From positions 186,001 to 250,000 of the forward strand of contig NZ_FOSQ01000008.1 in NCBI RefSeq assembly GCF_900114315.1: a DNA stretch of 64,000 nt, given 5' to 3'. Of the stretch, positions 10,210 through 25,305 are shown one piece after another. The position numbers and the translations under genes were made by a program. The notes beneath the pieces were generated by a model that was not told the origin of the DNA, did not search any database, and was given only the letters and a program-made list of their open reading frames with translations. The stretch comes from Falsiroseomonas stagni DSM 19981. Its GTDB lineage: Bacteria > Pseudomonadota > Alphaproteobacteria > Acetobacterales > Acetobacteraceae. Positions within the stretch are counted from its first letter, which is position 1. Each line of letters opens with the position of its first letter.

Positions 10210-11246
10210 GGCCGTATCGCCACCTGCACCTGCATGTTGGACCGCCGCGCCAGCGCCGCCACGCCATCGGCGCCCAGCGCGAGGCGCACCTCCACCGTGC
10301 GCGCATCCACCGCCGCGACGGGGTCCGTGCCCGCCTGCGTCGTGCGCCGCACCTGCCAGCCGATCTCCCGCACCACCGCCGCGAAGCGCCGGCTCTCGCC
10401 CGGCACGATGATCTCGGCCGGGGCGCCGGGGCGAAGCCGCGCGAGGTCCGTCTCGAACACATCGGCGACCACGTCGATCGCGGAAAGGTCCGCCATCTCC
10501 AGCACCCCATCCGTCGGCACGCGTTCGCCGGCGCGGGCAATCACGCGCAGCACCGTGCCGCCTATGGGCGCGCGCAGCCGTGCCATGGCGGCTTCCGCCC
10601 GGGCGCGCGTCACGGCCGCCTCGGCCGCCGCGAATTCCGCCTCCGCCAGCGCCAGATCCTCGGGCCGGGGGCTCAGCAGCGTCTCCAGCGCGGCCTGCGC
10701 CTCCGCGCGCTCGGCCCGGCTGCGGTTGGCGGCGAAGCGCGCGCGTTCCGCCGTCGCTTCCGCCCCCGCGCCCGTACGCTCCAGCCGCTCCGCGCGTTCC
10801 GCATCCCGCCGGGCGGAGGCCTCGGCGCTGGTCAGCGCCTCGATCCGCGCGCGCTGCGCCGCGATCTCGGAGGGCCGGCCCGCGGCGCGGGTGCGGTCCA
10901 GCTTCGCCCGCGCCTGGGCGAGTTGCGCCTCCGCCTGCGCCAGCGCCGCATCCTTCAGCCCGGCATCATGGAATTCGGCCACGACCTGCCCGGCAACCAC
11001 CACATCACCTTCCGCGACCAGAAGGCGATCGATGCGGGCGCCTTCCTGGCTGTTCCCGGGCGCGAGCCGTCGGATGCGCGATGCGGGCTCCACCCGCCCC
11101 AGCGCGCCGACACCCGCGGGGCCGGAGGCGGCGGCCGGCGCCACCACGGGGCTTGGCGCCGCGCCGGGCTGCATCGCCTGGAACCCGGCCGCCGCCGCGG
11201 CCACCACCACCACGCCGCCCAGCAGCAGCTTCGTGCGGCGGGTCAT
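10206..11246 (-). CDS. HlyD-family periplasmic adaptor (DevB-like)
   Basis: A 346-residue membrane-fusion protein with one N-terminal transmembrane helix (LLLGGVVVVAAAAAGF), a lipoyl half (GVGALGRVEPASRIRRLAPGN), a long Ala/Glu/Arg-rich alpha-helical hairpin (about residues 95-210), the second lipoyl half (RLRAPIGGTVLRVIARAGE) and a beta-barrel domain. It would link the DevC/DevA pump to an outer-membrane channel. The start ATG overlaps the tetR stop by four bases. No TolC-like gene is in the window. Confidence 0.92.
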   Translation of the reverse strand: MTRRTKLLLGGVVVVAAAAAGFQAMQPGAAPSPVVAPAAASGPAGVGALGRVEPASRIRRLAPGNSQEGARIDRLLVAEGDVVVAGQVVAEFHDAGLKDAALAQAEAQLAQARAKLDRTRAAGRPSEIAAQRARIEALTSAEASARRDAERAERLERTGAGAEATAERARFAANRSRAERAEAQAALETLLSPRPEDLALAEAEFAAAEAAVTRARAEAAMARLRAPIGGTVLRVIARAGERVPTDGVLEMADLSAIDVVADVFETDLARLRPGAPAEIIVPGESRRFAAVVREIGWQVRRTTQAGTDPVAAVDARTVEVRLALGADGVAALARRSNMQVQVAIRP

Positions 11247-11815
11247 GGCGCGGCCTCCAGCAGCCGCTCCAGCGCCGCGCGCAGTGTCCGCAGTTCCGCG
11301 GCATCCAGCTCGTACATCCCGAAGACCCGTGACATGAACAATCCGTCGGTGGCGCACATGATGGCCTGCCCCGCCCCGGGGGCCAGGCCATCGGCGGCGA
11401 TCGCCGCGCGCATGCGTTCGAACACCGCGCGAACCGGGTCGAGCAGCGCAGGGTCGTGGTGGAAGGCCGCCAGGAAGACCGCAGCCGCGCGGTCCTGGTG
11501 CTCGCAGGCCATGTCCTCGAAGGCCCAGGCGAGCATGGTGCGCGCGACGCGGCCCGGCCCCTCGGGCTGCGCCGCCAACGTCGAATCGAAATCACGGGAG
11601 ATGGTCTCGGCCAGCCGTCCCAGCATGCCGGCCAGCAGCGCCTCCTTGGAGGCGAAGTGATACAGCAACCCGCCCTTGGAAACCCCGGCGTCCCGCGCCA
11701 CGGCTTCCAGCGTCATCGCCGGCACGCCGCGCGTCTGCACGATGGCCTCCGCGGCGTCGAGGACGCGGGTGCGCGCATCCGGCGGCGGGTTGGTCACGGG
11801 GGCTGCATCATTCAT
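11243..11815 (-). CDS. TetR-family transcriptional regulator
   Basis: The 190-residue protein has a TetR N-terminal helix-turn-helix (MTLEAVARDAGVSKGGLLYHFASKEALLAGML, shown here as the landmark core AGVSKGGLLYHFASKEAL, near residues 44-61). A poorly conserved C-terminal ligand domain follows. It is the first gene of the exporter operon and is immediately preceded by a long palindrome, so it probably represses itself and the whole HlyD/DevC/DevA/reductase operon until an unknown effector binds. Confidence 0.92.
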   Translation of the reverse strand: MNDAAPVTNPPPDARTRVLDAAEAIVQTRGVPAMTLEAVARDAGVSKGGLLYHFASKEALLAGMLGRLAETISRDFDSTLAAQPEGPGRVARTMLAWAFEDMACEHQDRAAAVFLAAFHHDPALLDPVRAVFERMRAAIAADGLAPGAGQAIMCATDGLFMSRVFGMYELDAAELRTLRAALERLLEAAP

Positions 11816-11877: not shown

Positions 11878-12900
11878 TCAGGCCACGAGGCGATCCGCCC
11901 GCGCCGGCAGGTAGGCGTCGGTGTAGAGTTCCGACCCCGCCGGCCGGCGGGGGAAGCGATAGACCTTCTCCAGGATGCCGAGCCCGGCCTCCAGCCGCGC
12001 CGGGACCACGGCCGACAGGCCGTTCGCCTTCACATGGTCGGTCATGATCATCTCATCCACCACGATCCGCGTGCGCGCGGTCTCCAGCGGCAGGTCCACC
12101 AGCGGCTCGGCGTCCTTCACCGTCGCCGCCGCGGCGGCGGGGCCGCGCACCATCAGCTGCACGCCGCGGCTGATGCCGCGCACGATGCCGCGGACGATGT
12201 CCGGGTTGGCTTCGGCGTAGCGCCGCGTGGTGATGACGCCGTTGGAATAGAGCGGCACGCCGTAGTCGCGGTAGCGCATGATGTTCTGCTGCGCCCGCGC
12301 CACGCCGAGCCCTTCCAGGCTGATGACGGCGGAGCTGACGAAGCCCGTGATCGCATCCGCCTGGCCGCGCACCAGCATCGGCTCCCGCAATTCCGGGGAG
12401 ACGCTGATCCAGTTGACCTTCGCGGCGTCGAAGCCCGCGGCCTCCGCAAAGACCGGGAAGATCTGCCGCCCCGCATCGCCCTCCGGCGCCGCCAGGCGCT
12501 TGCCCTCCAGGTCCTTCGGTTCGCGGATGGAACCGCCGGCGCGGGAGACGCAGACAAGCGGCAGCCCATCGAAGGTCATCATCACGCAGATGAGGCCGAT
12601 GGCCGGGTTCTCCGCCGCGAAGCGCGCCATGGAGGAGAAGTCGCCGAAGCCGATGTCATACGCGCCACCGGCGATATCCACCGGCACGCGGCCCGACCCG
12701 AAGCCGCGCGACACGCGGGCATCGATGCCCTCGTCACGGAAATAGCCGAGGCGGTGCGCGGCGATGGCGAAGGCGGAGGCGCCGGAGAAGGCCCAGTCCA
12801 GCGTGAAGCGCGTGCTGCGCATCTGCGCGCGCGCATGCAGCGCGGGCAGGGAAAGGCCGGCGCCGAGGGAGGCCACCAGCGTGGAACGGCGCGTGATCAT
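11878..12900 (-). CDS. NMT1/SsuA-type ABC substrate-binding protein, module 1
   Basis: A 340-residue periplasmic binding protein of the NMT1/THI5-like family (transport of pyrimidine, sulfonate or aromatic-type ligands). It starts with a Tat-like signal (MITRRSTLVASLG) and continues with FTLDWAFSGASAFAIAAHR, GFGSGRVPVDIAGGAYDIGFGD, DLEGKRLAAPEGDAG and ADAITGF. The ATG at 12900 has GGAG nine bases upstream; the ATG at 12909 directly abuts that site. It lies 14 bp after a Rieske oxygenase gene. It is a clear paralogue of the product of 21920-22954. No permease or ATPase gene is nearby. Confidence 0.88.
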   Translation of the reverse strand: MITRRSTLVASLGAGLSLPALHARAQMRSTRFTLDWAFSGASAFAIAAHRLGYFRDEGIDARVSRGFGSGRVPVDIAGGAYDIGFGDFSSMARFAAENPAIGLICVMMTFDGLPLVCVSRAGGSIREPKDLEGKRLAAPEGDAGRQIFPVFAEAAGFDAAKVNWISVSPELREPMLVRGQADAITGFVSSAVISLEGLGVARAQQNIMRYRDYGVPLYSNGVITTRRYAEANPDIVRGIVRGISRGVQLMVRGPAAAAATVKDAEPLVDLPLETARTRIVVDEMIMTDHVKANGLSAVVPARLEAGLGILEKVYRFPRRPAGSELYTDAYLPARADRLVA

Positions 12901-12914
12901 GCTGGTCATCTCCT

Positions 12915-13952
12915 TCAGGCGGCCTTGGAGGGAACGGCGGCGGCGGCGGGGTCGCTGTAGCGTTCGACGATCTCGCGCAGCTTCTTGCGCGCCATGTTGT
13001 TCGCCTTGTCCGCGGGCATGCCGGCTTCCGGCGTCTCCCACGGCATGATCGGGACATCGGCGCGCGTGGATTCCAGGATGAAACGGTCTTCCGAGGTCAC
13101 CTTGCGGTCATGCGCGATGGCGGCGGCGGCGGGCACCTGTTCCTCGGTGTCGTTCCTGATGCAGAACTGCGTGAAGATGATCTTCTTGTCGGCCAGCGGC
13201 GTGCCGGCGGTGAAGATGATGTGCTGCACCCCGTTCGGGAACCTGATGTGCAGCTTGCGCGTGCAGGGCGCCCACCAGGTCGCGGTGCGGTCGCGCACCG
13301 TCGTCGTCTCCTTGATGCCCGTGTAGTCCTGCCCGACCTGGCGGTTGGCCACCGGCACGATGGATCGGCTGATGATGCCGAACTCCGTCTCCTCCACATC
13401 CTCGGCCGGCGGGACGGGGTTCTTGATGTCGCCCTGCGTCTCCCGGTGCACGAAGGCGACATGGGCGAGGTCGAAGAAATTGTCGGCGAGGCGGAACAGC
13501 GACATGTCCCATTCCTCGTGGAAGCAGTCGATGAAGCGGAACCCCGCCGCGCCGAATTCCGGCAGATGGGGGATGTCCATCAGCGGCTCCTCCACCGCGA
13601 CCCACACATAGTCGTAGCGGACCTGCACGCGGTACTTCTTCACGAAGGCCCGCGCCGCGATCTCCGGCGTCAGGCCCGGGCGCTGCGGGATGCTGGTGCA
13701 GTGCCCGTCCGCGCCGAAGGCCCAGCCGTGATAGGGGCAGCGGATCGAATCGCCGATGATCTCGCCCAGCGAGAGCTTGGCCGCGCGGTGGCAGCATTCG
13801 TCGCGGAGCGCGGAGACGGTGCCATCCGCCGCCTGCCAGATCACCATGTCCTCGCCGAACAGGCTGAAGGGCTGCGGCCCCGCCTTCAGCTTCGCGACCG
13901 GCATCGCGACGTACCAGAATTTCCGGAATACCGGGGCGTCCCCGACTTTCAT
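12915..13952 (-). CDS. Rieske (2Fe-2S) non-heme iron oxygenase alpha subunit, module 1
   Basis: A 345-residue aromatic-ring-hydroxylating or O-demethylating type oxygenase. The Rieske ligands are C53-x-H55 and C72-x2-H75 (CPYHGWAFG). The catalytic mononuclear iron site is NFFDLAHVAFVH (D-x2-H-x4-H). The length and the C-terminal domain resemble the phenoxybenzoate/vanillate demethylase (VanA-like) group. No ferredoxin reductase is adjacent, so electrons must come from elsewhere. The ATG at 13952 has GGAGAG upstream. It forms a two-gene unit with the downstream binding protein. Confidence 0.9.
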   Translation of the reverse strand: MKVGDAPVFRKFWYVAMPVAKLKAGPQPFSLFGEDMVIWQAADGTVSALRDECCHRAAKLSLGEIIGDSIRCPYHGWAFGADGHCTSIPQRPGLTPEIAARAFVKKYRVQVRYDYVWVAVEEPLMDIPHLPEFGAAGFRFIDCFHEEWDMSLFRLADNFFDLAHVAFVHRETQGDIKNPVPPAEDVEETEFGIISRSIVPVANRQVGQDYTGIKETTTVRDRTATWWAPCTRKLHIRFPNGVQHIIFTAGTPLADKKIIFTQFCIRNDTEEQVPAAAAIAHDRKVTSEDRFILESTRADVPIMPWETPEAGMPADKANNMARKKLREIVERYSDPAAAAVPSKAA

Positions 13953-14048
13953 GCGATCTCTCCGTCCTTCAGGCGGGACGGTGGGATGCAAGCGGCGCGC
14001 CAGGGCCCGGGGCCCGAATCGAGGCCCCGTTGCCGCCGGAAGCGGCAA

Positions 14049-15035
14049 TCAGGCGGGGATCGGCACCCGCTGCGCCAGCGGGTCGAGCAGGCTCTCGATC
14101 TCCGCCGATTCCTCCCATTGCAGCGTCACCGTCACCACGGTCACGCGGCTGCGGAACTGCGCGGGGATGCGCACGAAATCCTTCTTCGTCGTCACCAGCA
14201 GGGCGCGCGCGGCGTCGGCCTGCGCCAGCAGGTCCTGGATCTCCCCGGCATCGTACTGGTAGTGGTCGCCGAAGGCCTCCCGCCCCGCGAGGACCGCGCC
14301 GGATTCCTGCAGCGTCGCGAAGAACTTGCGGGGGTTGGCGATGCCGCAGAAGGCGAAGACGGGCTGGCCGCGCAGCATCGCCGCCTCCGGCCCCGCCGCC
14401 AGCTTCGCGCGCAGGACGCGCATGCCCGGCGGCAGCTGCGCCAGCGCGCCGGTCTCATCCTCCCCGATCAGCACGGCGGCCTGGCAGCGCGCGGCGGCCG
14501 CGGCCACGGGTTCGCGCAGCGGGCCGGCCGGGATGATCTGCCCGTTGCCGAAGCCGAAGCCGCCATCGATGATCAGCAGCGAGAGGTCCTTGGCGAGGCC
14601 CGGATTCTGCAGCCCGTCATCCATCACGATGGCGCGGGCATTGCCCTCGATCGCGGCCTTCGCGCCCGCCGCCCGGTCGGCGGAAACCCAGGTCGGCCGC
14701 ACATCGGCCAGCAGCAGCGCCTCATCCCCCACCAGGGTGCTGTCATGGGTGGCGGGGTCGACGCGCAGCGGCCCCTTGGTGGTGCCGCCATAGCCCCGCA
14801 GCAGGAAATGCGCGGCCACGCCGCGATCCGCCAGCCTTCGGCCGATATCGAGCGCGACCGTCGTCTTGCCCGCGCCGCCCGCCGTGGCATTGCCGCAGCA
14901 GATCACCGGCACCGGCGCCTGCCAGCCCGGCCGCGCCATGCGCCGCGCCGTCGCCTGCGCGTACAGGGCCGAAAATGGGGCGAGCAGCAGGGGCATCACG
15001 CCACCGCCGCCCGCCCAGAAGGCGGGTGCTCGCAT
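14049..15035 (-). CDS. lpxK: Tetraacyldisaccharide 4'-kinase
   Basis: This 328-residue protein phosphorylates the 4' position of the lipid A disaccharide at the inner membrane. The P-loop GNATAGGAGKTTVAL lies near residue 52. Other family blocks are HFLLRGYGG, VGDEALLLA, VMDDGLQNP, IPAGPLREP and FCGIANPRKFF. The ATG at 15035 gives normal family length. It lies downstream of waaA on the same strand, as in many alphaproteobacteria. Confidence 0.96.
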   Translation of the reverse strand: MRAPAFWAGGGGVMPLLLAPFSALYAQATARRMARPGWQAPVPVICCGNATAGGAGKTTVALDIGRRLADRGVAAHFLLRGYGGTTKGPLRVDPATHDSTLVGDEALLLADVRPTWVSADRAAGAKAAIEGNARAIVMDDGLQNPGLAKDLSLLIIDGGFGFGNGQIIPAGPLREPVAAAAARCQAAVLIGEDETGALAQLPPGMRVLRAKLAAGPEAAMLRGQPVFAFCGIANPRKFFATLQESGAVLAGREAFGDHYQYDAGEIQDLLAQADAARALLVTTKKDFVRIPAQFRSRVTVVTVTLQWEESAEIESLLDPLAQRVPIPA

Positions 15036-15167
15036 CGTGCCTAACCGTTCCTCGACCCTTGTTGGTGCCCTTGCGGGCGATACGCGACGGGGGGCCTGGG
15101 GGGACAGAGACCCACCCGGGCCATTCAGCACTCGACCGGCCGGCCCGGCCCCGTGGCGGCCTGAAGG

Positions 15168-16463
15168 TCAGGCCGGGGGCAGCAGATCGACCAGCGCCTC
15201 CGCCACCCGGCCCGGCAGCCCGGCATGCGCATCGGCAACCCCGGAGGCGGCGGTTATCAGCGCCTGCGCCCGGGACCCATCGGATAGCACGCCGGCGACT
15301 GCCTCCGCCAGCGCCCCGCCCCCGGGCGCCGCCAGCGCCACGCGGATGGCGCCCCCGGCGGCCAGCAGACGGTCCACCGATTCCTCGAAATTCTGGGTAT
15401 GGGGCCCGAACAGGATGGGGCAGCCGAGGCGCGCGGCCTCCAGCGGGTTCTGCCCGCCATGCGGCACCAGGCTGCCGCCAATCAGCGCGACCCGCGCCAC
15501 GCGGTAGAACAGCCCGAGTTCGCCCAGCGTGTCCGCGACATAGACGGAAACCCCCGGCCCCGGCGCCCCGCCGCCGGTCCGCCGCGCCACCGCCCCCGGC
15601 AGCAGGCCCTCCGCCTGCCCGGCCACCGCTTCACCCCGCTCAGGGTGCCGCGGCACCAGCACGGTCAGCAGGTCCGGAAATCGCGGCAGCAGCGCCTGGT
15701 GCGCCGCCACCACCATCGCCTCCTCCCCCGGATGGGTAGAGGCCGCGAGGAACACGGGCCGCGCGCCCAGCAGCGCCCGCAGCCGCGCCAGCGCCGCCGC
15801 ATCCGCCGGGAGCGGCGCCGCCGCGGCCTTGAGGTCCCCCCAGCACAGCGCCCCCGACGCCCCCAGCGCCGCCAGCCGCGCCCGATCCCCCTCCGACCGC
15901 GCCAGCACCAGGCGGAAGCCGCCCAGCGCCTCCGCCGCCAGGGACGGCGCGCGCTGCCAGCGGGCGAAGGAACGTCCGCTCATCCGCCCATTCACCAGGA
16001 CCATGGGCAGGCCGCGCACCCGCGCGGCCGCCAGCAGGTTCGGCCAAAGCTCGCTTTCCACGAAGGCCGCCGCATCCGGCCGCCAGCCGTCGAGGAACCG
16101 CGCCACCCAGCCCGGCACGTCGAGCGGCATGAAGCGATGCTCCACACGCGCCGCCAGTTCCGGCGCCAGGCGCCGGCCCAGCATCTCCGCCCCGGTCACC
16201 GTGCCGGTCGTGACCAGGAAGCGCAGCCCGGCATCGCGCGCGGCCATCGCCTCCAGCACCGGCAGGGCGGAGATCGTCTCCCCCACGCTGGCGGCGTGCA
16301 GCCAGAACAGGCGGCCCTCGCGCCGCGCCGCGCCGCCGCCCCGCCTCTCGTCGAGCCGGCCGGGAATCTCCTTGCCGATGCGCAGCCGCCGGCGGAAATG
16401 CAGGGCGAGGAAGGGCGCGATCATCCGCGCCCCCACCGCCCAGGCGCGCCCAGCGAGACTCAT
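15168..16463 (-). CDS. waaA: 3-deoxy-D-manno-octulosonic-acid (Kdo) transferase
   Basis: This 431-residue GT30 glycosyltransferase attaches Kdo to lipid IVA. The N-terminal domain carries FWLHAASVGETISALPVLEAM with the catalytic Glu of GETxSA. The C-terminal domain carries VPRHPERG, YVADTLGELGLFYRVA, IGGSLVPHGGQNPLEAA and FGPHTQNFEE. An N-terminal hydrophobic stretch anchors it to the inner membrane. The ATG at 16463 has GGAGG 7 bases upstream and lies 22 bp after the DUF374 gene, so the two are probably co-transcribed. Confidence 0.96.
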   Translation of the reverse strand: MSLAGRAWAVGARMIAPFLALHFRRRLRIGKEIPGRLDERRGGGAARREGRLFWLHAASVGETISALPVLEAMAARDAGLRFLVTTGTVTGAEMLGRRLAPELAARVEHRFMPLDVPGWVARFLDGWRPDAAAFVESELWPNLLAAARVRGLPMVLVNGRMSGRSFARWQRAPSLAAEALGGFRLVLARSEGDRARLAALGASGALCWGDLKAAAAPLPADAAALARLRALLGARPVFLAASTHPGEEAMVVAAHQALLPRFPDLLTVLVPRHPERGEAVAGQAEGLLPGAVARRTGGGAPGPGVSVYVADTLGELGLFYRVARVALIGGSLVPHGGQNPLEAARLGCPILFGPHTQNFEESVDRLLAAGGAIRVALAAPGGGALAEAVAGVLSDGSRAQALITAASGVADAHAGLPGRVAEALVDLLPPA

Positions 16464-16485
16464 CGCCACGCCTCCGGCATGAGAC

Positions 16486-17184
16486 TCATCGCGCCTTCTC
16501 GGCCGGGATGCCGCAGGCCGCATCCGCCGCCGCGCAGGCCGCATCCAGCGCGGCCTCGATCATCGGCAGCGCCGCCGCCGCGCCATCCCGCGGCACCTCG
16601 ATCAACGGCCCGCAGGCCAGCACGCCGCGGCCGAAGGGCAGCGGGAACATCATCCGGTCCCAGGAGCCGAACCGCCGATGGGCGGAGGATGCCGCGCCCA
16701 CCGGCACAACCGCGGCCCCCGACAGCGCCGCCAGCTGCGCCACCCCCGGCGCCGCGCGGCGCCGCGGTCCCCGCGGCCCGTCCGGCGTGATGAGGATGGG
16801 GTCGCCCCCCTTCAGCGTCCGCAACAACCCGGCCAGCGCCATGGCCCCGCCGCGGCGGGAGGACCCGTAGACCATCTCCACCCCGAAGCGCCGCACGGCA
16901 TCCCCGATGAAGCGGCCATCGCGGTGCTGGCTGACCAGCACGCGCGGCGTGACGCGCAGCGCCGCGGGCTCCAGCTGCCCGGCCAAGACGCGAAGCGGCG
17001 GGATCATCGGCAGCCTCTCATGCCAGAAGGCGATCACCAGCGGCTCCCCGGCCGCGATCCGCGCCAGCGCCGGCCCGGCGCCGACCAGTTCCCAGCGGGA
17101 GGTCCTGACCACCAGCACCAGATACAGCCCCACCAGCCGCGCCAGCACCGCCTGGGTGGCGGGATGCCGGATCAGCCTGCGCAC
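16486..17184 (-). CDS. DUF374 lysophospholipid acyltransferase-family protein
   Basis: The 232-residue protein has the DUF374 blocks IAFWHERLPMIPPLR, VLVSQHRDGRFIG and ILITPDGPRGPRRRAAPG, related to LPLAT acyltransferases. Family members sit next to waaA in alphaproteobacteria and probably act in lipid A or phospholipid assembly; activity is not demonstrated from sequence. No ATG fits: GTG at 17184 is the most likely start, because the open frame further upstream lacks start codons close to the domain. The start is therefore uncertain. Confidence 0.85.
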   Translation of the reverse strand: MRRLIRHPATQAVLARLVGLYLVLVVRTSRWELVGAGPALARIAAGEPLVIAFWHERLPMIPPLRVLAGQLEPAALRVTPRVLVSQHRDGRFIGDAVRRFGVEMVYGSSRRGGAMALAGLLRTLKGGDPILITPDGPRGPRRRAAPGVAQLAALSGAAVVPVGAASSAHRRFGSWDRMMFPLPFGRGVLACGPLIEVPRDGAAAALPMIEAALDAACAAADAACGIPAEKAR

Positions 17185-17337
17185 AGGGATCGGGGGCGAA
17201 AGGGCGTCATCATGGCAGCGGTAGCATGAAGCGAACCGGCACGAAATCGCCCCCCCTGGCGGGCCATCATGCCGCTGGCACGCCCATTGCTCCGCCCTGG
17301 CAACGACCATCATCCGCGAAGTAACAAGGAGGTTCTG

Positions 17338-17919
17338 ATGGTGGACGCTGCCGCATCCCCGCGCCTGGCTGCCTATGCCATCGCCACGGCGCTCAACCTC
17401 GCCATCACTGTGCTGCCGATCTTCCAGCGCAGCTTCCTGCTGAGCATCAGGGCGCTCGAGGCCGACACGGAGGCATCGCGGGAAGCCTTGCTGAAGCGTC
17501 CGCGCTTCGGCCGCAGCATCGGCTTCCTGGAACGGCAGATCTACCTCTATGCCCTGTCGGCCAAGGGCCTCGACCTCATCACCGCCGTCGTCGTCTTCAA
17601 GGCCTTCGCGGAATGGATCAAGCCGGACGTGCAGCCAGGGAAGACCGCGGCAACCGATGACAGCCAGAAGATGCTGCTGGCCCGGTTCTACGCCTACACC
17701 ATCGGCAACCTGCTTTCGATCCTGTGGGCCATTGCCATCCATGAGGCCAGCGGACCCTTGGCGACGCTCCTTCCCGTGCTGTCGCTGGGCACCGCGCTGG
17801 CGCTGGCGGCCATCCTTGGCCTGGCCATGACCGTCGCGGCCACTGCGCATGGCGCGAAACCCGCGACGAAGGCCGCCCCGCCCGCATCCGCGCCGCCAGG
17901 CACCGACGGTACTGCCTGA
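17338..17919 (+). CDS. Uncharacterised four-helix membrane protein
   Basis: I do not recognise a family. The 193-residue protein has four hydrophobic segments (about residues 10-30, 83-100, 123-142 and 145-173). A charged loop (EADTEASREALLKRPRFG) follows the first, and the C-terminal tail is Ala/Pro/Lys-rich. A strong AAGGAGG site lies 5 bases before the ATG at 17338, which supports real translation. It is isolated between the divergent DUF374 gene and a convergent glycosyltransferase gene. Confidence 0.7.
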   Translation: MVDAAASPRLAAYAIATALNLAITVLPIFQRSFLLSIRALEADTEASREALLKRPRFGRSIGFLERQIYLYALSAKGLDLITAVVVFKAFAEWIKPDVQPGKTAATDDSQKMLLARFYAYTIGNLLSILWAIAIHEASGPLATLLPVLSLGTALALAAILGLAMTVAATAHGAKPATKAAPPASAPPGTDGTA

Positions 17920-17930
17920 CACCGCGGCCG

Positions 17931-19001
17931 TCAGGCGTGGTCCTGCACCTTCGGCACCAGGCTGTCGCGGAACCGCTGCGCGCAGGCATCCCAGGAAAAC
18001 CCCGCCGCATGGGCCCGGCACGCGCCGCGATCCGCCCCCAGCGCCCGCAGGCAGGCGGCGCGCAGATCCTGATCCAGCGCACCCACGGGCTCGTCCCCGA
18101 TCACATCCAGCGGCCCCGTGACCGGATAGGCCGCGACCGGCGTGCCGCTCGCCAGCGCCTCCAGCAGCACCAGGCCGAAGGTGTCGGTGCGGGAGGGGAA
18201 GACGAAGACATCCGCCGCCGCGTAGGACCGCGCCAGGCGCCCATTCTCCCGCCACCCCGCGAAATGCGCGTCGGGGAAGCGCCGCATCAGCGCCGCGCGC
18301 TGCGGCCCATCCCCCACCACCACCTTGCTGCCCGGCAGGTCGAGACCGAGGAACGCCTCCAGGTTCTTCTCCACCGCCACGCGCCCCGCGACCAGGAAGA
18401 TCGGCCGCGGCAGGCCCTCCCACGGCTCGGGCTCGCCCCGCGCATCGGGGTTGAACCTGTCGAGGTCCACGCCCCGCGACCACGGCACGACAGGGGCAAA
18501 GCCCCGGCCCCGCAACTCCGCCGCCAGCGACGGCGTGGCGCAGAGGACGCCCGATGACGGCCGATGGAAATGGCGCATCAGCGCCCAGGACCACGCCTTC
18601 GGGATCCGCGTGCGCGCATGGAGGTAGTCCGGGAACTTGGTGTGGAAGGAGGAGGTGAAGCGCCATCCCCGCTTGCGGCAGATCGCCCGCATCGCCCAGC
18701 CCAGCGGCCCCTCGGTCGCGATGTGCAGCGCGTCCGGCCGGAATTCATCGACCAGCCGCGCCAAGCGCCGCCGTGGCGCGATGGCCAGGCGGATCTCGGC
18801 ATAGCCCGGCATCGGCACGGTGACGAACCGGTCCGGCCCGATCACCGCGACCTCGTCGCCGCAGGCGCGCAGCACCGCGACCACCGCCTGCAGCGTGCGC
18901 ACCACGCCATTCACCTGCGGCAGCCAGGCGTCGGAGACGATGAGGATGCGCCGCTTCCCCACGGCGAGCCCCGGCGTGCCCGGCATCGCGAAGGCCCCCA
19001 T
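17931..19001 (-). CDS. Glycosyltransferase family 4 protein
   Basis: A 356-residue GT-B glycosyltransferase. The N-terminal part has ILIVSDAWLPQVNGVVRTL and HIATEGPLGWAMRAICRKRG. The C-terminal nucleotide-sugar part has FLVAGRVAVEKNLEAFL, VVVGDGPQRAAL and VFPSRTDTFGLVLLEALASGTPVAAYPV with the E-x7-E motif. It resembles mannosyl- or glucuronosyl-diacylglycerol-type transferases. ATG at 19001 or 18986 is possible; I took the longer. The gene lies 29 bp downstream of an LpxH-like phosphoesterase gene, a pairing common in alphaproteobacteria, so a role in envelope glycolipids is likely but not proven. Confidence 0.88.
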   Translation of the reverse strand: MGAFAMPGTPGLAVGKRRILIVSDAWLPQVNGVVRTLQAVVAVLRACGDEVAVIGPDRFVTVPMPGYAEIRLAIAPRRRLARLVDEFRPDALHIATEGPLGWAMRAICRKRGWRFTSSFHTKFPDYLHARTRIPKAWSWALMRHFHRPSSGVLCATPSLAAELRGRGFAPVVPWSRGVDLDRFNPDARGEPEPWEGLPRPIFLVAGRVAVEKNLEAFLGLDLPGSKVVVGDGPQRAALMRRFPDAHFAGWRENGRLARSYAAADVFVFPSRTDTFGLVLLEALASGTPVAAYPVTGPLDVIGDEPVGALDQDLRAACLRALGADRGACRAHAAGFSWDACAQRFRDSLVPKVQDHA

Positions 19002-19030
19002 GCCCCAGACCCGGTCCGTGTCCAATGCCG

Positions 19031-19834
19031 TCAGGCGGGCTGCGGCACGGGCGTGGCCTCGCCACGGAAGAAGCTCAGCCGGTTCTCCCGCGCCCAGTCC
19101 ACCAGTTCGAACCTGCCATCGGCGTGTTCCACCAGCGCGGTGCAGCTCTCCACCCAGTCGCCATCGTTCATGTAGAGGATGCCCTGCACCTCCCGCATCT
19201 CCGCATGGTGGATGTGGCCGCAGACCACGCCATCCAGCCCGCGCCGCCGCGCTTCCTGCGCCAGCGCCACCTCGAAGCGATCGATCGCCGCCACCGCGCC
19301 CTTCACCTGGCGCTTCAGCCATTGCGACAGCGACCAGTAGGGATAGCCGAAGCGCCGGCGCGCCGCGTTGAACCAGCGATTCGCGGCCAGCGCCGCGTCA
19401 TAGGCCCAGTCGCCGAGATGGGCGATGAACTTGGCGTAGCGCACCACGCTGTCGAATTCATCGCCATGGATCACCAGCAGGCGCCGCCCATCCGCCGTGC
19501 GGTGCACCGCTTCCTGCGCCAGGCGGATACCCGCGAATTCCAGGCCGATCCAGGCACGGAACATCTCGTCATGGTTGCCGGGGATGTAGGTCACTTCCGT
19601 CCCCGATCGCGCCATGCGCAGCACCAGGCGGATCACCTCGTCATGCTCGGCGTCCCAGTACCAGGATTTGCGCAGCCGCCAGCCATCGACGATGTCGCCG
19701 ACAAGGTAGAGCCTCTCGCACTCCACGGACCGCAGGAACTGCGCCACGAAATCCGCGCGGCAGCCGCGGGTGCCGAGATGCAGGTCCGAGAGGAACACCG
19801 TCCGGTAGCGCCGCTTCGTCTCGGTTCCATTCAT
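19031..19834 (-). CDS. LpxH-like calcineurin-type metallophosphoesterase
   Basis: This 267-residue protein carries the dinuclear-metal motifs SDLHLG (near residue 16), GDIVDGW, GNHDE, HGDEFD and GHIHH. It resembles UDP-2,3-diacylglucosamine diphosphatase (LpxH/YbbF-type) proteins. However, alphaproteobacteria usually make lipid A with the unrelated LpxI, so this enzyme may act on another lipid-linked phosphate, perhaps a substrate or product of the adjacent glycosyltransferase. ATG at 19834. Confidence 0.85.
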   Translation of the reverse strand: MNGTETKRRYRTVFLSDLHLGTRGCRADFVAQFLRSVECERLYLVGDIVDGWRLRKSWYWDAEHDEVIRLVLRMARSGTEVTYIPGNHDEMFRAWIGLEFAGIRLAQEAVHRTADGRRLLVIHGDEFDSVVRYAKFIAHLGDWAYDAALAANRWFNAARRRFGYPYWSLSQWLKRQVKGAVAAIDRFEVALAQEARRRGLDGVVCGHIHHAEMREVQGILYMNDGDWVESCTALVEHADGRFELVDWARENRLSFFRGEATPVPQPA

Positions 19835-20071
19835 GCGTCAGCGCCTCGCGATCTTGCAGTTCGTGCCGGCCCGGCAAGGCCAGCGCCACGCGCAACGCGC
19901 CGATCGGCCTGCCGTTGCGCGACCGCGCTGTATCGCGCCCGCACCGCGCGCGACGTGAATCTTGCATGAAGGCCGAGGCAGGACGCGCCATGGCACGATG
20001 CGCCGCGCGCATGTCACGCCTCCGTCAACACACCGACCGCGAATCGTCACGGCCACGCGCGACAAGACCGC

Positions 20072-20959
20072 ATGCTCGTCATCTTCAACCCGGCCGCGGG
20101 CGCCGGCCGCCGGCGGCGCCTGTCGCGCGCCATCGACTGGCTGTGCCGCGAAGGCCTGCCGCCGGACATCGCGGAAACGCGCGCCCCTGGCGATGCGCGG
20201 CGGATCGCGGCGGATGCCGCCGCGGGCGGCCGGCGCATCATCGTCGCCGCTGGCGGCGATGGCACCATCGCGGAGGTCGCGGCCGGCATCGCTGGCAGCG
20301 CGGCCACGCTGGGCATCCTGCCGCTCGGCACCGCCAATGTGCTGGCCTGGGAACTCGGCCTGCCATCGGCGCCGGAGGAAGCGGCCGCCGTACTGGCCGG
20401 CGGCCAGCGCCGCCTGGTCTGGCCCGGCATCATCACCGATGAGGCCGGTGGCCAGCGGCTTTTCGTGCAGATGGCCGGTGCCGGCTTCGATGCGGCCGTG
20501 GTGCGGGATCTCGACCTCGGCCTGAAGCGGCGGCTCGGCCGCACCGCCTATGTGATCCAGGCGATGCGGGAAGTGGCGCGCCATCCCTTCACCCCGATCG
20601 AGGCCGTGATCGACGGCGCGCCGCATCGCGCCACCAGCGTCATCGTCACGAAGGGGCGGCTCTATGCCGGGCGCCACCTGCTGGCCCCGGCCGCCCGGCC
20701 CCGGTCGCCGGGCTTCCAGGTGGCGCTCTTCGCCGGCACCGGCCCGGCCTCGATCGTGCTGGCGGGGCTGGCGCTGCCGCTCGGCCTGCTGCCGCGGCTG
20801 CCGGGGCTGTCCATCCGGCCGGCCAGCCGGATCAGCCTGGCCGGCGCCGGCGTGGCCTTGCAGGCCGATGGCGATCCCGCCGGCACCCTGCCCGTCCGGA
20901 TCGAGGACGCGCCCGTCGCGCTGCCGGTGCTGATGCCCGCCCGCAGCCCGGCCCGTTGA
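20072..20959 (+). CDS. Diacylglycerol / lipid kinase (YegS-DagK family)
   Basis: The 295-residue protein has the catalytic-domain motifs of the DAGK/sphingosine-kinase family: VIFNPAAGAGRR at the N-terminus, VAAGGDGTIAEVAAG near residue 65 and ILPLGTANVLAWELG near residue 87. The C-terminal beta-sandwich domain ends in a Gly/Asp-containing VALQADGDPAG. It should phosphorylate a membrane lipid on the cytosolic face. It is divergent from the phosphoesterase and glycosyltransferase pair, so all three may act on related lipids. Confidence 0.9.
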   Translation: MLVIFNPAAGAGRRRRLSRAIDWLCREGLPPDIAETRAPGDARRIAADAAAGGRRIIVAAGGDGTIAEVAAGIAGSAATLGILPLGTANVLAWELGLPSAPEEAAAVLAGGQRRLVWPGIITDEAGGQRLFVQMAGAGFDAAVVRDLDLGLKRRLGRTAYVIQAMREVARHPFTPIEAVIDGAPHRATSVIVTKGRLYAGRHLLAPAARPRSPGFQVALFAGTGPASIVLAGLALPLGLLPRLPGLSIRPASRISLAGAGVALQADGDPAGTLPVRIEDAPVALPVLMPARSPAR

Positions 20960-21015
20960 TCGGCGGGCCGCCGGCCGGGGGCATTCAGCCTTCCTTCAGC
21001 GGGAAGGCCCTAGGG

Positions 21016-21468
21016 ATGGCAGTCCATCGCCGCCGGGAACCGCGCCACGCCATGCCGAAGGAGGTCCGCCACATCCTCTTCACGCCGGAGGAGTTGCTCC
21101 GCGCGGTCATGGAGCAGGCGATGAAGGGCCGCCCCACCCCGGCCCAGACGACGGACAGCTTCCACCTGGAACTCGCCGCCGACCCGCGTGGCGATGTCGT
21201 GGCGCGGATCGTCCGCCGCCGCGCCGGCGGCCGGTCCACCATGTCCTGGGAGGTGTCGCGCCAGGAACTGCACCAGGTGCTGCTGACGCTGTGCCGGGGC
21301 GCGCGAATCCCGCTGCCCGTGCGCGGCGACAAGCGCCTCGGCCTGTCCGGCGCCAATCTCTGCCTGACCGTCGTGACGGGCGCCCATCCAGGCCCGCCGC
21401 TGGTGGGCGACGGCAGCATCCGCTACGCGGACCCTGAACTGGAGCCCTTCATGCCGGTGCCGGTGTAG
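21016..21468 (+). CDS. Conserved hypothetical protein
   Basis: This 150-residue soluble protein is not assigned to a family with a known function. Its core begins PKEVRHILFTPEELLRAVMEQ and continues with DSFHLELAADPRGDVVARIV and TMSWEVSRQELHQVLLTLCRGARIPLP. The ATG at 21016 has GGAAGG eight bases upstream; ATG at 21052 is the alternative. It follows the lipid kinase gene on the same strand. No membrane segment or signal peptide is visible. Confidence 0.6.
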   Translation: MAVHRRREPRHAMPKEVRHILFTPEELLRAVMEQAMKGRPTPAQTTDSFHLELAADPRGDVVARIVRRRAGGRSTMSWEVSRQELHQVLLTLCRGARIPLPVRGDKRLGLSGANLCLTVVTGAHPGPPLVGDGSIRYADPELEPFMPVPV

Positions 21469-21472
21469 CCCT

Positions 21473-21664
21473 TCAGGCCACGCCCTCGCGGGAGAGGGCG
21501 ATCATCGCGGCGCCGAGCCCCGCACCCAGCGACACCAGCCCGAACCCCGCCGCGGTGGCGATGCCCGCGACGCCAAACCCCATGGCCGGCACCAGCGCCA
21601 GCGCCACGGTGGACATGCCGGCCAGGGCGGTGAAACCGGCCAGGAGGCAGAGGGCGATCAGCAT
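21473..21664 (-). CDS. Small hydrophobic membrane protein
   Basis: A 63-residue, almost entirely hydrophobic protein with two probable transmembrane helices (LIALCLLAGFTALAGMSTVA and a Gly/Ala-rich second helix). A GGAGG site lies 7 bases before the ATG at 21664, which is the main reason to call it. It is convergent with the preceding gene. Function unknown. Confidence 0.5.
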   Translation of the reverse strand: MLIALCLLAGFTALAGMSTVALALVPAMGFGVAGIATAAGFGLVSLGAGLGAAMIALSREGVA

Positions 21665-21842
21665 GGCGGCACCTCCTCGGTGACAGGGGCTCAATGCCAG
21701 GCGGCCCGGGGTAGGGCGAAACATGGCGACAGATTGTCGTATACGCCTTTTTTCCGCCATGTTCCAACCACGAAAATGGGAGGCACCCTGGGGCACCTCC
21801 CTGTCCTGGAACCTCCGCCAGGCCGCCCCGAAGGCCGACGAC

Positions 21843-21928
21843 CGTCAGCCCGCTGCGACCCCCAGGTCGTCAGCCCGCTGCGACCCCCAGGTCGTCAGCA
21901 CGCTGCGACCCCCAGGTCGTCAGCCCGC
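21843..21928. repeat. 25-bp tandem repeat, three full copies plus a partial
   Basis: Units at 21843-21867, 21868-21892 and 21893-21917 are identical apart from one C-to-A change in the third. A fourth, partial copy (from 21918) runs into the 3' end of the binding-protein gene and supplies its stop codon. Head-to-tail units without unique spacers exclude CRISPR. The likely origin is slippage or duplication of the gene end. Confidence 0.9.
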
Positions 21929-22954
21929 CGCGGCGGGGAAGCGCAGTTGGTCGGCCGGCGGCAGGAATTGCGGCATGTAGAAATCCTCCGCCGCCAGCGT
22001 CGCGCTGATGTTGAAGGCGGTACGGATCGTCTCGATGGAGGCCTGGACGCGCGGCATCGGCAGGTTGCCGAAGCCGCCGGACAGCACTTCCGGCGTGCGC
22101 ACGAATTCGAAATTGGCCGCCAGGCGTTCCTTCTCCAGCGCCACCGGCGCCGTCGCGTCGCGCCGCACCAGGGCCGCGATGGCCGCATCCGGGTCGCGCA
22201 GCGCATCCAGGTGGCCGCGGATGATGGCGCGGATCATGCCGGTCACGATGCGCGGATTGGCGTCCGCGTAGCTCTTCCGCACCTGCAGGCCGGTGGACAG
22301 CAGCGACACGCCGAAGCTGGAATAGCGCATCACCACGATATCCGCGCGCGGCACGCCGAGTGCCAGCAGGCTGAACACGCCCGACGTCTCGAACCCCGTG
22401 ATGGCATCGGCATCGCCCCGCGCCAGCATCGGCTCCCGCAGCTGCGGCGTGACGGTGATCCAGGTGATCCGCGCGGTGTCGATGGAGGTGGCGCGCGCGA
22501 AGGCCGGGAAGAACTGGCGGCCGCCATCGGTTTCCGGCGCCGCGACGCGCTTGCCTTCGAGGTCCTTCGGATTGCGGATGCCGGTGCGCCGCAGCGTGAT
22601 GGCCGATAGCGGGCTGCCTTGTGCCAGCACGAAGGGGCAGATCACGTCGGTGCCGGGCTGGGTCAGCCGCAGGCGGATGGTGGCGGAGATGTCGCCCACG
22701 CCGAATTCATAGGCGCCGGAGGCGATCTTCACCGGCACGTCGCCCGCGCCGAAGCCGCGGTCGATGGTGACGGCGAGCCCTTCGTCCCGGTAGTAGCCCC
22801 GTTCCAGCGCCAGCAGGTAGGGCGCCTGCGGCCCCTGGAAGGCCCAGTCCAGCGAGAAGCGGATGGGGGTCAGCGCGCCCTGTGCGCCCGCGATCCGGGG
22901 GGTGGCGAGCAGGCCGCCGGCGGCGGCCAGCAGCGTGCGTCGGGTGGTGGTCAT
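21920..22954 (-). CDS. NMT1/SsuA-type ABC substrate-binding protein, module 2
   Basis: This 344-residue binding protein is a paralogue of the one at 11878-12900. Shared landmarks are RFSLDWAFQGPQAPYLLAL, DRGFGAGDVPVKIASGAYEF, NPKDLEGKRVAAPETDGG, QLREPMLARGDADAITGF and KSYADANPRIV. The start is a Tat-like MTTTRRTLLAAAGG, with AGGAGAGG upstream of the ATG at 22954. It diverges from a Rieske oxygenase gene at 23262. No cognate permease or ATPase is nearby. The substrate is presumably related to that of the oxygenase. Confidence 0.88.
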   Translation of the reverse strand: MTTTRRTLLAAAGGLLATPRIAGAQGALTPIRFSLDWAFQGPQAPYLLALERGYYRDEGLAVTIDRGFGAGDVPVKIASGAYEFGVGDISATIRLRLTQPGTDVICPFVLAQGSPLSAITLRRTGIRNPKDLEGKRVAAPETDGGRQFFPAFARATSIDTARITWITVTPQLREPMLARGDADAITGFETSGVFSLLALGVPRADIVVMRYSSFGVSLLSTGLQVRKSYADANPRIVTGMIRAIIRGHLDALRDPDAAIAALVRRDATAPVALEKERLAANFEFVRTPEVLSGGFGNLPMPRVQASIETIRTAFNISATLAAEDFYMPQFLPPADQLRFPAAAG

Positions 22955-23027
22955 GATCCGCCTCTCCTGCGCGGCCGTTTGCCGGCCGTTGGTTTCGGGG
23001 ATGGCGAAGCAATGGGCGTGCCGGTCT

Positions 23028-23151
23028 GGCAGGGGGGGCGCTGCTCCCCCTGCCAGGGTCCAGCGGGCCCCTGGACCGCGGCGTTCTTGCTGATGGTCCA
23101 GGGGGGTCTCCCCCCTGGCGGATGGGGTGTGGGGAAGGCAGCGCCTTCCCC
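23028..23151 (+). repeat. Dispersed two-hairpin element, copy 3 (plus extra hairpin)
   Basis: The core is a CCAGGGGG / CCCCCTGG hairpin (23098-23105 and 23111-23118), a CGGATGGGGTG linker and GGGGAAGGC / GCCTTCCCC (23131-23139 and 23143-23151). An additional 9-bp hairpin (23028-23036 / 23046-23054) precedes it. The core is about 50/55 identical to the reverse complement of the copy at 24309, so the Rieske gene in between is bracketed by inverted copies. Confidence 0.8.
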
Positions 23152-23261
23152 ACCAACCGCCCCATCCCGCGCCATCCGGCCCAGTCTTTATGCAGAATCT
23201 CCGCTGATATGCGCCCTCTGCCTCCATCCCAGGCTGGCACACCCATTGCCTCGCCCCCCGC

Positions 23262-24299
23262 ATGGTCCCGACCCGTCAAAAGCTGCTCCGCCGCTTCTGG
23301 TATCCCGTGATGCCGGACGCTTCCCTCCCCACCGGCAAGCCCGTGCCCTTCACCCTGCTGGGGCAGGAGATCGTGCTGTGGCGCGCCCAGGCCGGCGCCC
23401 CCGCCGCCATCGCGGATCGCTGCCCGCATCGCGGCGCGAAACTCTCGCTGGGCTTCATCGACGCGCAAGCGCCGGAGGGGCCGGCGTTGGGCTGCCCCTA
23501 TCACGGCTGGGCCTTCGGCGCGGATGGCCGCTGCGTGAAGGTGCCGCAGGCGCATGACCCGACGCGCGGCCTGAAATCCGGCGCCAAGGGCCACCACGCG
23601 GCCTCCCGCTACGGCTGGATCTGGGTGGCGCTGGAAGACCCGCTCTACCCCATCCCTGAAATCCAGGAAGCCGCCGACCCCGCCTTCCGCCAGATCGACG
23701 AGTTCCATGAGGAATGGGCCGTCTCCGGCCTGCGCCTGATGGAGAACAGCTTCGACATGGCGCATATCAGCTACGTCCATGCCGAGACCTTCGGCATCCT
23801 GGAGGACCCCCGCCCCGCCCCCGTCGCGATCGAGCATACCGACTGGGGCTTCATCATGCGCGGCGAGGCGCCGGTGGCGAACCGCGGCATCTCCAAGGAC
23901 CTCATCAAGGGCGCCGGCGACCGCACGGTCCGCATCATCGAAGGCCGCTGGTTCATGCCCTTCATGCGCGCCAGCCGCATCGACTACCCCACCGGGCTGA
24001 CCCATGTGCTGGTTACCGCCGCGACGCCCATCGACGACCGCCGCAGCCAGATCTGCCAATGGGTCTATCGCAACGACACCGAAGCCGAATCACCCGCCGC
24101 GAAGGTCATCGCCTTCGACCGCGCCGTGACGATCGAGGACAAGCACGTGCTGGAAAGTACGACCTGGGACGTGCCGCTGACCATGTCGGAGGAACTGCAC
24201 ATGCCCTCCGACAAGCCGGGCATCGAGATGCGGCGGCGGCTGCTGGCGCTGCTGGAAGAGCATGGGGAAGCCGAGGCGCGGATGCCCGTCGACGCGTGA
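23262..24299 (+). CDS. Rieske (2Fe-2S) non-heme iron oxygenase alpha subunit, module 2
   Basis: A 345-residue Rieske oxygenase related to the one at 12915-13952. Ligands are C54-x-H56 and C78-x2-H81 (CPYHGWAFG). The inter-ligand loop is five residues longer than in module 1. The catalytic iron motif is NSFDMAHISYVH. The start ATG at 23262 is followed immediately by the family-typical RRFWYPVMP. It diverges from its partner binding-protein gene, while in module 1 the two genes are co-directional. No reductase is adjacent. The substrate is unknown; the VanA-like demethylase/hydroxylase group is the nearest guess. Confidence 0.9.
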   Translation: MVPTRQKLLRRFWYPVMPDASLPTGKPVPFTLLGQEIVLWRAQAGAPAAIADRCPHRGAKLSLGFIDAQAPEGPALGCPYHGWAFGADGRCVKVPQAHDPTRGLKSGAKGHHAASRYGWIWVALEDPLYPIPEIQEAADPAFRQIDEFHEEWAVSGLRLMENSFDMAHISYVHAETFGILEDPRPAPVAIEHTDWGFIMRGEAPVANRGISKDLIKGAGDRTVRIIEGRWFMPFMRASRIDYPTGLTHVLVTAATPIDDRRSQICQWVYRNDTEAESPAAKVIAFDRAVTIEDKHVLESTTWDVPLTMSEELHMPSDKPGIEMRRRLLALLEEHGEAEARMPVDA

Positions 24300-24308
24300 C
24301 AAACACAG

Positions 24309-24360
24309 GGAAGGCGCTGCCTTCCGCCCACCCCATCCGCCAGGGGCGTGACGCCCCTGG
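24309..24360 (-). repeat. Dispersed two-hairpin element, copy 4 (inverted)
   Basis: GGAAGGC / GCCTTCC (24309-24315 and 24319-24325), a CACCCCATCCG linker, and CCAGGGGC / GCCCCTGG (24340-24347 and 24353-24360). It is the inverted counterpart of copy 3. The innermost base pair of the long stem is swapped from G-C to C-G, a compensatory change. It lies between convergent genes and could terminate both. Confidence 0.8.
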
Positions 24361-24372: not shown

Positions 24373-25305
24373 TCAATCCAGCGTGCCTGGGAAGTGGCAC
24401 GCTACGCGATGGTCCGTGCCGACCAGGGCGGGCACCTGCGCCGCGCAGTGCGCGACGGCCCGCGGGCAGCGCGTGCGGAAACGGCAGCCACTCGGCGGAT
24501 CGGCCGGGCTCGGCACCTCCCCCTTCAGCACGATCCGCGTCCGCCGCGCCTGGCCAGGCTCCGCCACCGCCGACAACAGCGCCTGGGTATAGGGATGCTG
24601 GGGCGCGCCGAAGATCGACTCCCGCGGCGCTTCCTCGACGACCTGGCCGAGATACATCACCGCCACACGCGGGGCCATGTGACGCACCGCGGCCAGATTG
24701 TGGCTGACGAACAGGCAGGCCAGGCCCAGCCTCTCCTGCAACTCCCGCAGCAGGTTCAGCACCTGCGCCTGGATCGAGACATCCAGCGCACTGGTCGGCT
24801 CGTCGCAGACCAGAAAGGCCGGCTCCGTCGCCAGGGCACGGGCAATCGCGATCCGCTGCCGCTGCCCGCCGCTGAACTCATGCGGATACCGCGCGGCGTG
24901 CTCCGGCAGCAGCCCCACCAGCTCCAGCAGGGCCGAGACGCGCGCGGCGCGCGATGCGCCATCGCCGATGCCATGCACGACCAGCGGCTCCGCCAGCAGC
25001 TGCGCGACACTCATCCGCGGATTGAGACTGCCGAAAGGATCCTGGAACACCACCCCCATGTCCCGCCGCAACGCGCGCATGGCACGCTCCGGCAGATGCG
25101 TGATGTCATCGCCCCGGAAGGCGAGCGTCCCGCCATCCGGCTCGATCAGCCGCAACACCAGCCGCGCCAGCGTCGATTTCCCGCAGCCGCTCTCCCCCAC
25201 GAGGCCCAGCGTCTCCCCGGCCCCGATCGCGAGATCGACGCCATCCACCGCCCGCACCCCACCAGCGAAGGTCTTTCTCAGGTCCCGCGCCACCAGCAGC
25301 GTCAT
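24373..25305 (-). CDS. Oligopeptide/dipeptide-type ABC transporter ATPase (DppF/OppF-like)
   Basis: The 310-residue ATPase has Walker [11 protein letters not shown]-loop [16 protein letters not shown], signature FSGGQRQR, Walker [13 protein letters not shown] and the oligopeptide-type C-terminal extension with [14 protein letters not shown], a cysteine cluster seen in Dpp/Opp ATPases. The ATG at 25305 overlaps the stop of the DppD-like gene (ATGA). It is the last cistron of the importer operon. Confidence 0.93.

Follow-up and report, generated by a model that had tools for sequence, protein, structure and literature searches.

Gene pairs of NMT1-type binding proteins and Rieske oxygenases in Falsiroseomonas stagni, and a candidate shared ATPase-permease encoded in trans

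Introduction

Several described systems encode a substrate-binding protein (SBP) together with an oxygenase or with importer genes. In Escherichia coli ssuEADCB a monooxygenase shares an operon with the genes of an ATP-binding cassette (ABC) importer; this system and the PatDABC phthalate importer (PMC3983516, excerpted text) have an SBP of the same broad fold class as the proteins described here, with the ATPase and permease in the operon. In the iad operon of Variovorax, as given in the excerpted text of PMC10374108, the SBP IadK2 and the Rieske oxygenase IadDE are coded together and bind the same compound; the oxygenase there is an alpha3beta3 dioxygenase served by a dedicated reductase, IadC, and the SBP is described as of the B-III type. 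Here we describe two SBP-Rieske oxygenase gene pairs in a stretch of 64,000 nucleotides from Falsiroseomonas stagni DSM 19981 (‘the window’; C19:186001-250000 of genome G000, a 6.38 Mb draft in 44 contigs). The pairs are a known kind of uptake-plus-oxygenase cluster. They differ from iad in having a single-subunit VanA/NdmA-type oxygenase, an NMT1-type SBP and no reductase in the locus (no beta-subunit gene was noticed beside either oxygenase), and from ssu and PatDABC in that the ATPase and permease lie apart.

A further point of comparison is the xanthine (NMT1-motif) riboswitch regulon, whose targets, in the excerpted text of PMC7373994, include NMT1/THI5-like and tauA genes, dioxygenases (pcbC, hcaE) and PRK12393-type amidohydrolases/deaminases. 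Deaminases of the PRK12393 type also occur beside the present oxygenase group (loci L137 and L140); however, no xanthine riboswitch turned up in the loci scanned or in our genome (a search that matched no control genome either), and the riboswitch-side 2-oxoglutarate (2OG) oxygenase examined, from genome G188, is no more than about 30% like its counterpart next to the nearest paralogue of our first binding protein, SBP1. The use of one translocation module by several binding components is familiar from the LivJ/LivK and HisJ/LAO pairs. For energy-coupling factor (ECF) transporters, the excerpted text of PMC7755397 proposes that several binding components compete for one module. Here the components that share a module would be soluble SBPs of the NMT1 type, whose genes adjoin those of catabolic enzymes. 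No paper on NMT1 SBPs sharing a translocator in trans was found in the open-licence PMC literature searched, and searches for Rieske enzymes in connection with NMT1, hypoxanthine or purine, and for orphan SBPs, led nowhere. An initial annotation, made from the sequence alone, had called the system ‘not described as such’; this is true only in part, as related arrangements of SBP and oxygenase genes appear in the excerpts of PMC7373994 and PMC10374108.

Our best explanation, to which we give even chances, is that the pairs are small catabolic modules, the SBP ligand being imported by a shared ATPase-permease on contig C26 and hydroxylated or N-demethylated by the oxygenase.

Results

In the first pair, the oxygenase OX1 (12915..13952, minus strand; 345 aa) is a VanA/NdmA-like Rieske oxygenase by Pfam, alignment and an AlphaFold2 model. 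It is followed after 5-14 bp, depending on which start is used (12900 or 12909), by the co-directional SBP1 (11878..12900, minus strand), an NMT1/THI5-type SBP by Pfam and model. The second pair lies about 8 kb away: the paralogous SBP2 (21920..22954, minus strand; Pfam and sequence comparison) and the paralogous oxygenase OX2 (23262..24299, plus strand; 345 aa) are divergent, with 307 bp (22955..23261) between them. OX1 and OX2 are 43% identical (5e-91), SBP1 and SBP2 42% (7e-83). Coordinates, identities and Pfam thus bear out what the initial annotation had said of two paralogous pairs, one co-directional and one divergent, and the sequence landmarks it had listed (LREPML, ADAITGF, CPYHGWAFG and D-x2-H-x4-H) are present, the second as DADAITGF in SBP2. 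A third pair, OX3 and SBP3, also divergent, is found at C37:163160-165387. All three oxygenases of this group in the genome have an NMT1 match within 400 bp; with 33 NMT1 matches in 6.38 Mb, a simple uniform model expects 0.015 that close to one given oxygenase.

For comparison with other genomes, oxygenase relatives were taken as the best 80 of 412 candidates from named genomes (78 loci), plus 17 oxygenase places found in 12 genomes when 150 from the family were searched, with repeats of the same place removed. NMT1 SBPs were found with a profile built from sequences in the same loci. The oxygenase group is defined by a score of at least 290 bits to OX1 or OX2, a threshold set in a visible gap after the scores had been seen. 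Within this group, 31 of 47 oxygenases have an NMT1 SBP within 2.5 kb (26 within 400 bp), vs 4 of the 55 that score lower (1 within 400 bp). After reduction to 80% non-redundant sequences, the 2.5-kb counts are 17/31 for group members and 2/37 for more distant relatives (Fisher 6e-6); the pairing is not due to chance. The pairing spans Pseudomonadota, Bacillota (Paenibacillus) and Cyanobacteriota (Phormidium), so that the gene-neighbourhood check proposed in the initial annotation finds the two families side by side in three phyla. In the Roseomonas lineage it is kept in each locus with enough flank. The nearest OX1 relatives among the best 80 of 412 candidates (an Acetobacteraceae metagenome-assembled genome (MAG), Roseomonas ponticola and Falsiroseomonas algicola) are 97-99% identical; in loci L027 and L028 pair 1 sits in a different chromosomal context. 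In Falsiroseomonas oryziterrae (L052, 507-3695) an OX2-type oxygenase has an SBP2-type gene on either side.

In Rhizobiales, Paenibacillus and others, oxygenases of the same group also adjoin entire ABC importers of the NMT1 type. All four components (oxygenase, SBP, ATPase and permease) occur together in L047, L048, L044, L046 and L036, and 14 of the 47 group oxygenases have an SsuC-type permease within 6 kb. Because the pairing recurs, in several genomes within complete ABC operons, it fits delivery of the oxygenase substrate by the SBP. One locus is seen in both states: L036 (Kaistia hirudinis) has, and L037 (K. soli) lacks, an ATPase-permease-SBP block by the oxygenase, which is a natural importer gain or loss.

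Nothing comparable is found in cis in our genome, where no cognate ATPase or permease lies within 6 kb of any of the three pairs; the Roseomonas-lineage loci examined, some of them on short contigs, likewise have no SsuC-type permease within 6 kb. The initial annotation had reported no ABC permease or ATPase nearby. As worded this does not hold: a Dpp/Opp-type ABC operon (24376-29612; ATPase, permease and SBP tested) begins <80 bp past the end of OX2 and has its own SBP, of the SBP_bac_5 family, and the genes at 8240-11357 read as an exporter-type ABC operon. What does hold is that neither is NMT1-cognate, since nothing in the window reached the thresholds for an SsuC-like (30 bits) or SsuB-like (110 bits) gene. 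Across the genome, 11 SBPs fall in one clade (support 100/99), of which a single member, coded on C22, lies no more than 5 kb from an SsuC-type permease.

The search for a shared permease and ATPase that the initial annotation had suggested leads to a pair at about C26:140440-142100 (permease 140440-141357), outside the window and with no SBP within about 9 kb. Such an SBP-less ATPase-permease pair is present in 9/9 pair-carrying genomes examined (ours and eight others), in two of which the contig breaks off immediately upstream of the ATPase. The C26-type permease is 70-74% identical to the cis permeases of SBP1-type operons. In the permease tree the nine SBP-less rows group together (91/83), nested in a clade of 18 rows (96/91) that also holds the operon partners of SBP1-like proteins (other Acetobacteraceae, L047/L048); in the ATPase tree a wider group is supported (17 rows 93/88, 23 rows 100/99), and SBP-less and cis rows intermingle.

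The phyletic pattern was examined in 150 genomes of the family (SBP1-like proteins at E <=1e-60, permease at E <=1e-70); at most 14-15 candidates were scored per genome, so the counts are lower bounds. SBP1-like proteins occur in at least 21 genomes, at no fewer than 51 places. The C26-type permease occurs in at least 23: all 21 with SBP1-like proteins and 2 of the 129 others, one of which (G038) does have an SBP in cis, scoring under the cut-off, and the other (G105) stops at a contig edge. Eleven of the 21 have a cis SBP, and there the co-occurrence is therefore trivial. In the remaining ten (G000, G095, G003, G005, G011, G016, G059, G087, G107 and G141) the ATPase-permease has no SBP within 1.5 kb (in G087 as far as the contig end), and one of the ten permeases, that of G059, has a stop inside the matched stretch. 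These ten genomes together hold at least 31 SBPs at E <=1e-60; compared with 2/129, the association has a Fisher value of 1e-13, without correction for kinship. Since the SBP-less permease is linked to the SBP clade by both the tree and the phyletic pattern, one shared translocator is the simplest reading: the missing permease of the pairs is probably that of C26, acting in trans, and one translocator may serve several dispersed SBPs, 7-11 of them here. With slightly less than even confidence we extend this to a ‘hub-and-spoke’ ABC importer, in which one SBP-less ATPase-permease would serve a whole clade of dispersed NMT1-type SBPs, several of them beside a different ring-attacking enzyme (three Rieske oxygenases, a dihydropyrimidinase over its cut-off, other amidohydrolases and, by reading, a 2OG-like oxygenase).

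Among these sister SBPs, that in L106 adjoins the dihydropyrimidinase and that in L105 lies beside ATZ/TRZ- and allantoinase-like amidohydrolases, for which the only cut-off reached is that of a broad dihydroorotase subfamily domain. The closest SBP1 paralogue (50%; L103, G000:C22:478000-497900, at 8230-10332) has as its neighbour what looks, by reading, like a gene for a 2OG/isopenicillin-N-synthase-type oxygenase, a binding-protein-plus-oxygenase pair with a different enzyme class. Only one complete importer belonging to the SBP clade is encoded in the genome, at C22:687-691 kb next to a biuret amidohydrolase. It was considered as the hub and rejected, because a near-identical (92%) copy of its permease is found in only 2/8 other pair-carrying genomes. 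In the surrounding locus (L107, G000:C22:679000-698900) the NMT1-type importer, with two permeases, adjoins an NtaA/DmoA-family monooxygenase and the biuret amidohydrolase, both over cut-off; this is perhaps a triazine/biuret cluster.

OX1 and OX2 both match the Rieske domain (PF00355) and VanA_C (PF19112) over cut-off. The ligands of the [2Fe-2S] cluster and a 2-His-1-carboxylate site are found in one chain (C53, H55, C72, H75, D161, H164, H169 and D289, invariant in 31 aligned oxygenases); D289 would be the third iron ligand, judging by its invariance. The OX1 model (pLDDT 91.8) is nearest in fold to SxtT/GxtA and NdmA. These are its best matches in sequence as well, along with the methylxanthine N-demethylases NdmA/NdmB; the TM score is about 0.8, but identity is 24-25% (NdmA 25%), too low for transferring a substrate to OX1. 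SBP1 and SBP2 match NMT1 (PF09084) with 106.7 and 97.4 bits (cut-off 20.5). The SBP1 model (pLDDT 91.8) is nearest to 4nmy, 3ix1 and Thi5, which are thiamin/pyrimidine-precursor binders (TM 0.75-0.76 by query length to 4nmy and 3ix1). The NCBIfam cut-offs for SsuA_fam (163.5) and taurine (304.25) binding proteins are reached neither by SBP1 (46.0 and 28.0) nor by SBP2 (40.9 and 26.7), and none of the proteins of these two pairs scores above the cut-off of any NCBIfam model.

The initial annotation had read the two pairs as a duplicated module. This reading is not supported, and a recent tandem duplication is rejected: OX1-, OX2- and OX3-type enzymes form three separate supported clades, each with its own relatives elsewhere, and SBP1 falls in one clade, SBP2 and SBP3 in another. 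Approximately unbiased (AU) tests on 22 matched pairs, hand-picked as non-redundant and including distant NMT1 partners, show each gene's alignment rejecting the other's tree (p 7e-47 and 1e-7), and thus partners have changed. Pairs 2 and 3 are near each other in both 22-pair trees, and a common origin of these two is possible.

Hints at the substrate come from gene neighbourhoods, those of the sister SBPs above included, and from the nearest folds, which on the oxygenase side are enzymes acting on guanidinium-rich and methylxanthine compounds and on the SBP side the thiamin/pyrimidine-precursor binders. Pair 3 is flanked on one side by an amidohydrolase and an Amdase-type gene and on the other by creatininase (assigned by clustering) and FAD_binding_4 genes. 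Around L047 are genes for hydroxyisourate hydrolase, PuuE/OHCU decarboxylase and allantoate amidohydrolase, and around L043 for 8-oxoguanine deaminase, OHCU decarboxylase, allantoinase and allantoate deiminase, all over their NCBIfam cut-offs. L043 (Paenibacillus caui, 31-11071) is a purine-ureide run that includes an NMT1 SBP together with two Rieske oxygenases that differ from each other; none of the genes inspected was seen to be a uricase, so that purine oxidation with a Rieske step is conceivable there. In L137 and L140 a PRK12393 deaminase immediately adjoins the oxygenase and is 54-58% identical to the one beside the xanthine riboswitch in G188, the only genome matched in a scan of 385 genomes of the class (strict filters; no control matched). 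Purine/ureide marker families are enriched (18/40 vs 7/49, p 0.002), with references partly drawn from three of these loci. A purine-like substrate is suggested by some relatives and, for the present pairs, weakly supported; a nitrogen-rich ring of purine or pyrimidine type is a class-level guess for pairs 1 and 2.

Discussion

In the mechanism that we propose, the SBP would be exported and capture a small compound, probably with a nitrogen-rich, purine- or pyrimidine-type ring. The loaded SBP would dock in trans on the shared C26 ATPase-permease, and the cytoplasmic Rieske oxygenase would hydroxylate or N-demethylate the imported compound with electrons from a reductase coded elsewhere; we assume the donor to be a general ferredoxin/Fpr or a borrowed reductase. 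In the Roseomonas/Falsiroseomonas lineage the SBPs would be dispersed to enzyme loci, with one translocator apart; relatives have the transporter in the operon. Of the ‘small uptake-and-attack system’ in the initial annotation, the uptake and attack are probably right, as the recurrence of the pairing and the complete importers fit delivery; it is probably not transporter-less, given a cognate-looking ATPase-permease in trans.

A number of observations weigh against this proposal. The oxygenase and SBP trees conflict, and of the 38 group members whose flanks extend 1.5 kb or more in each direction, 11 lack an SBP within 2.5 kb. These include one Martelella copy, LEGE 07170, G059 and two Kaistia species, which have no importer beside the oxygenase either; for five of these 11, a permease lies no more than 6 kb away. 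In L132 the importer near an OX3-type oxygenase has a thiamin pyrophosphate (TPP) riboswitch (7410-7515) and is probably a thiamin-precursor system that lends no support to pairing with the oxygenase; an NMT1 importer near such an oxygenase is not always its partner. In L030, from a Rhodospirillales MAG, a 65% relative of OX1 follows genes that read as a LIV-type importer; this run (2483-8987) itself follows a PuuE-like gene (below cut-off), so the same oxygenase type occurs with another importer class. No reductase lies close to the pairs, as the initial annotation had noted: the five PF00175 proteins of the genome are all coded on contigs other than C19 and C37. The ones on C8 and C38 have other Rieske genes nearby, and by reading we take those on C14, C24 and C22 to be like benzoate-dioxygenase reductase, PaaE and Fpr, respectively. 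The dN/dS ratio is higher at larger distances, about 0.5 for SBP1 against L027 and L028. As to purines, none of 12 Roseomonas-lineage OX1/OX2-type loci, several on short contigs, has any of seven purine/ureide marker families within 10 kb. The marker enrichment falls to 15/37 (p 0.01) without the three reference-source loci and to 9/37 (p 0.27) when creatininase is also left out. The xanthine riboswitch was found neither in the 23 loci scanned nor in our genome, where the search matched no control genome either.

The same module and shared translocator with other chemistry, acting on aromatic or methoxylated compounds (vanillate-, dicamba- or phthalate-like) or another non-purine substrate, seems to us rather unlikely. 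It would suit the VanA_C domain, the presence of dicamba and guaiacol O-demethylases among the fold matches of OX1, the 12 loci with no purine gene and the fading enrichment. Against it stand the purine/ureide runs of L043 and L047, the PRK12393 deaminases of L137 and L140, and the nearest folds of both proteins, SxtT/GxtA and NdmA for the oxygenase and thiamin/pyrimidine-precursor binders for the SBP. We also regard it as unlikely that the SBPs deliver to some other translocator, such as the Dpp-type operon, another NMT1 importer or a TRAP system, with the C26 pair serving other SBPs only. The 18 SsuC-type permeases in the genome leave choices, and the Dpp/Opp-type operon is a close neighbour of OX2, but that operon has its own SBP from another family. 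The C26 permease and ATPase group with the cis partners of the SBP clade, while other permeases that were placed do not, except for two on C22, where the near-identical copy is sparsely distributed as described above.

Readings in which the SBP imports nothing fare worse. It is quite improbable that the SBP acts in the periplasm as a sensor or receptor partner, signalling the oxygenase substrate instead of importing it. Other systems do have sensor SBPs (PMC11113362, excerpted text), no cognate transporter is coded in cis, and a TetR gene adjoins pair 1; however, TetR proteins are cytoplasmic, relatives carry complete importers, and by reading no sensor kinase or chemoreceptor was seen among the genes called beside the pairs. 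Least probable of all is a relic, in which the importer was lost, the SBP is a decaying leftover and the oxygenase is fed by diffusion or another porter. The missing cis permease would fit, as would the faster divergence of SBP1 between more distant strains (dN 0.23 vs 0.09-0.11 for OX1). However, the frames are open and dN/dS among close strains is low (vs R. ponticola: OX1 0.08, SBP1 0.08, OX2 0.15 from a partial gene, SBP2 0.12), which shows selection on both genes, and the constancy of the pairing in the Roseomonas lineage and the phyletic link to the trans permease are also hard to reconcile with decay.

If import through a shared C26-type translocator is correct, new food molecules could be added through one SBP-enzyme pair without a new pump, much as S-components share the ECF module. 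Many bacterial genomes hold transporter-less SBPs that are left as ‘orphan’ or ‘NMT1/THI5-like’; with the translocator at one conserved trans locus, this whole class could be tested by one permease deletion. The pairing also offers a route to substrates, as whatever the SBP proves to bind can be offered first to the oxygenase, and one group of VanA/NdmA-like Rieske enzymes may turn out to act in the breakdown of purines or related rings.

Other features of the window

A promoter scan found no promoter-like site, including in the 307-bp stretch between SBP2 and OX2, and a terminator scan gave 4 terminator-like sites vs 3.6 expected. Between 11 and 25 kb there are six sub-threshold riboswitch/RNA-family matches to unrelated families, none of them RF03054. 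At 21843-21932 a head-to-tail 25-bp repeat, in three overlapping 40-nt copies (95-100%), extends into the 3' end of SBP2. The palindrome GGGAAGGC-NNN-GCCTTCCC flanks OX2 on both sides, perfectly at 23132-23150 within the 307-bp stretch and with one mismatch at 24308-24326; it did not occur in 100 shuffles and may be a dispersed repeat element.

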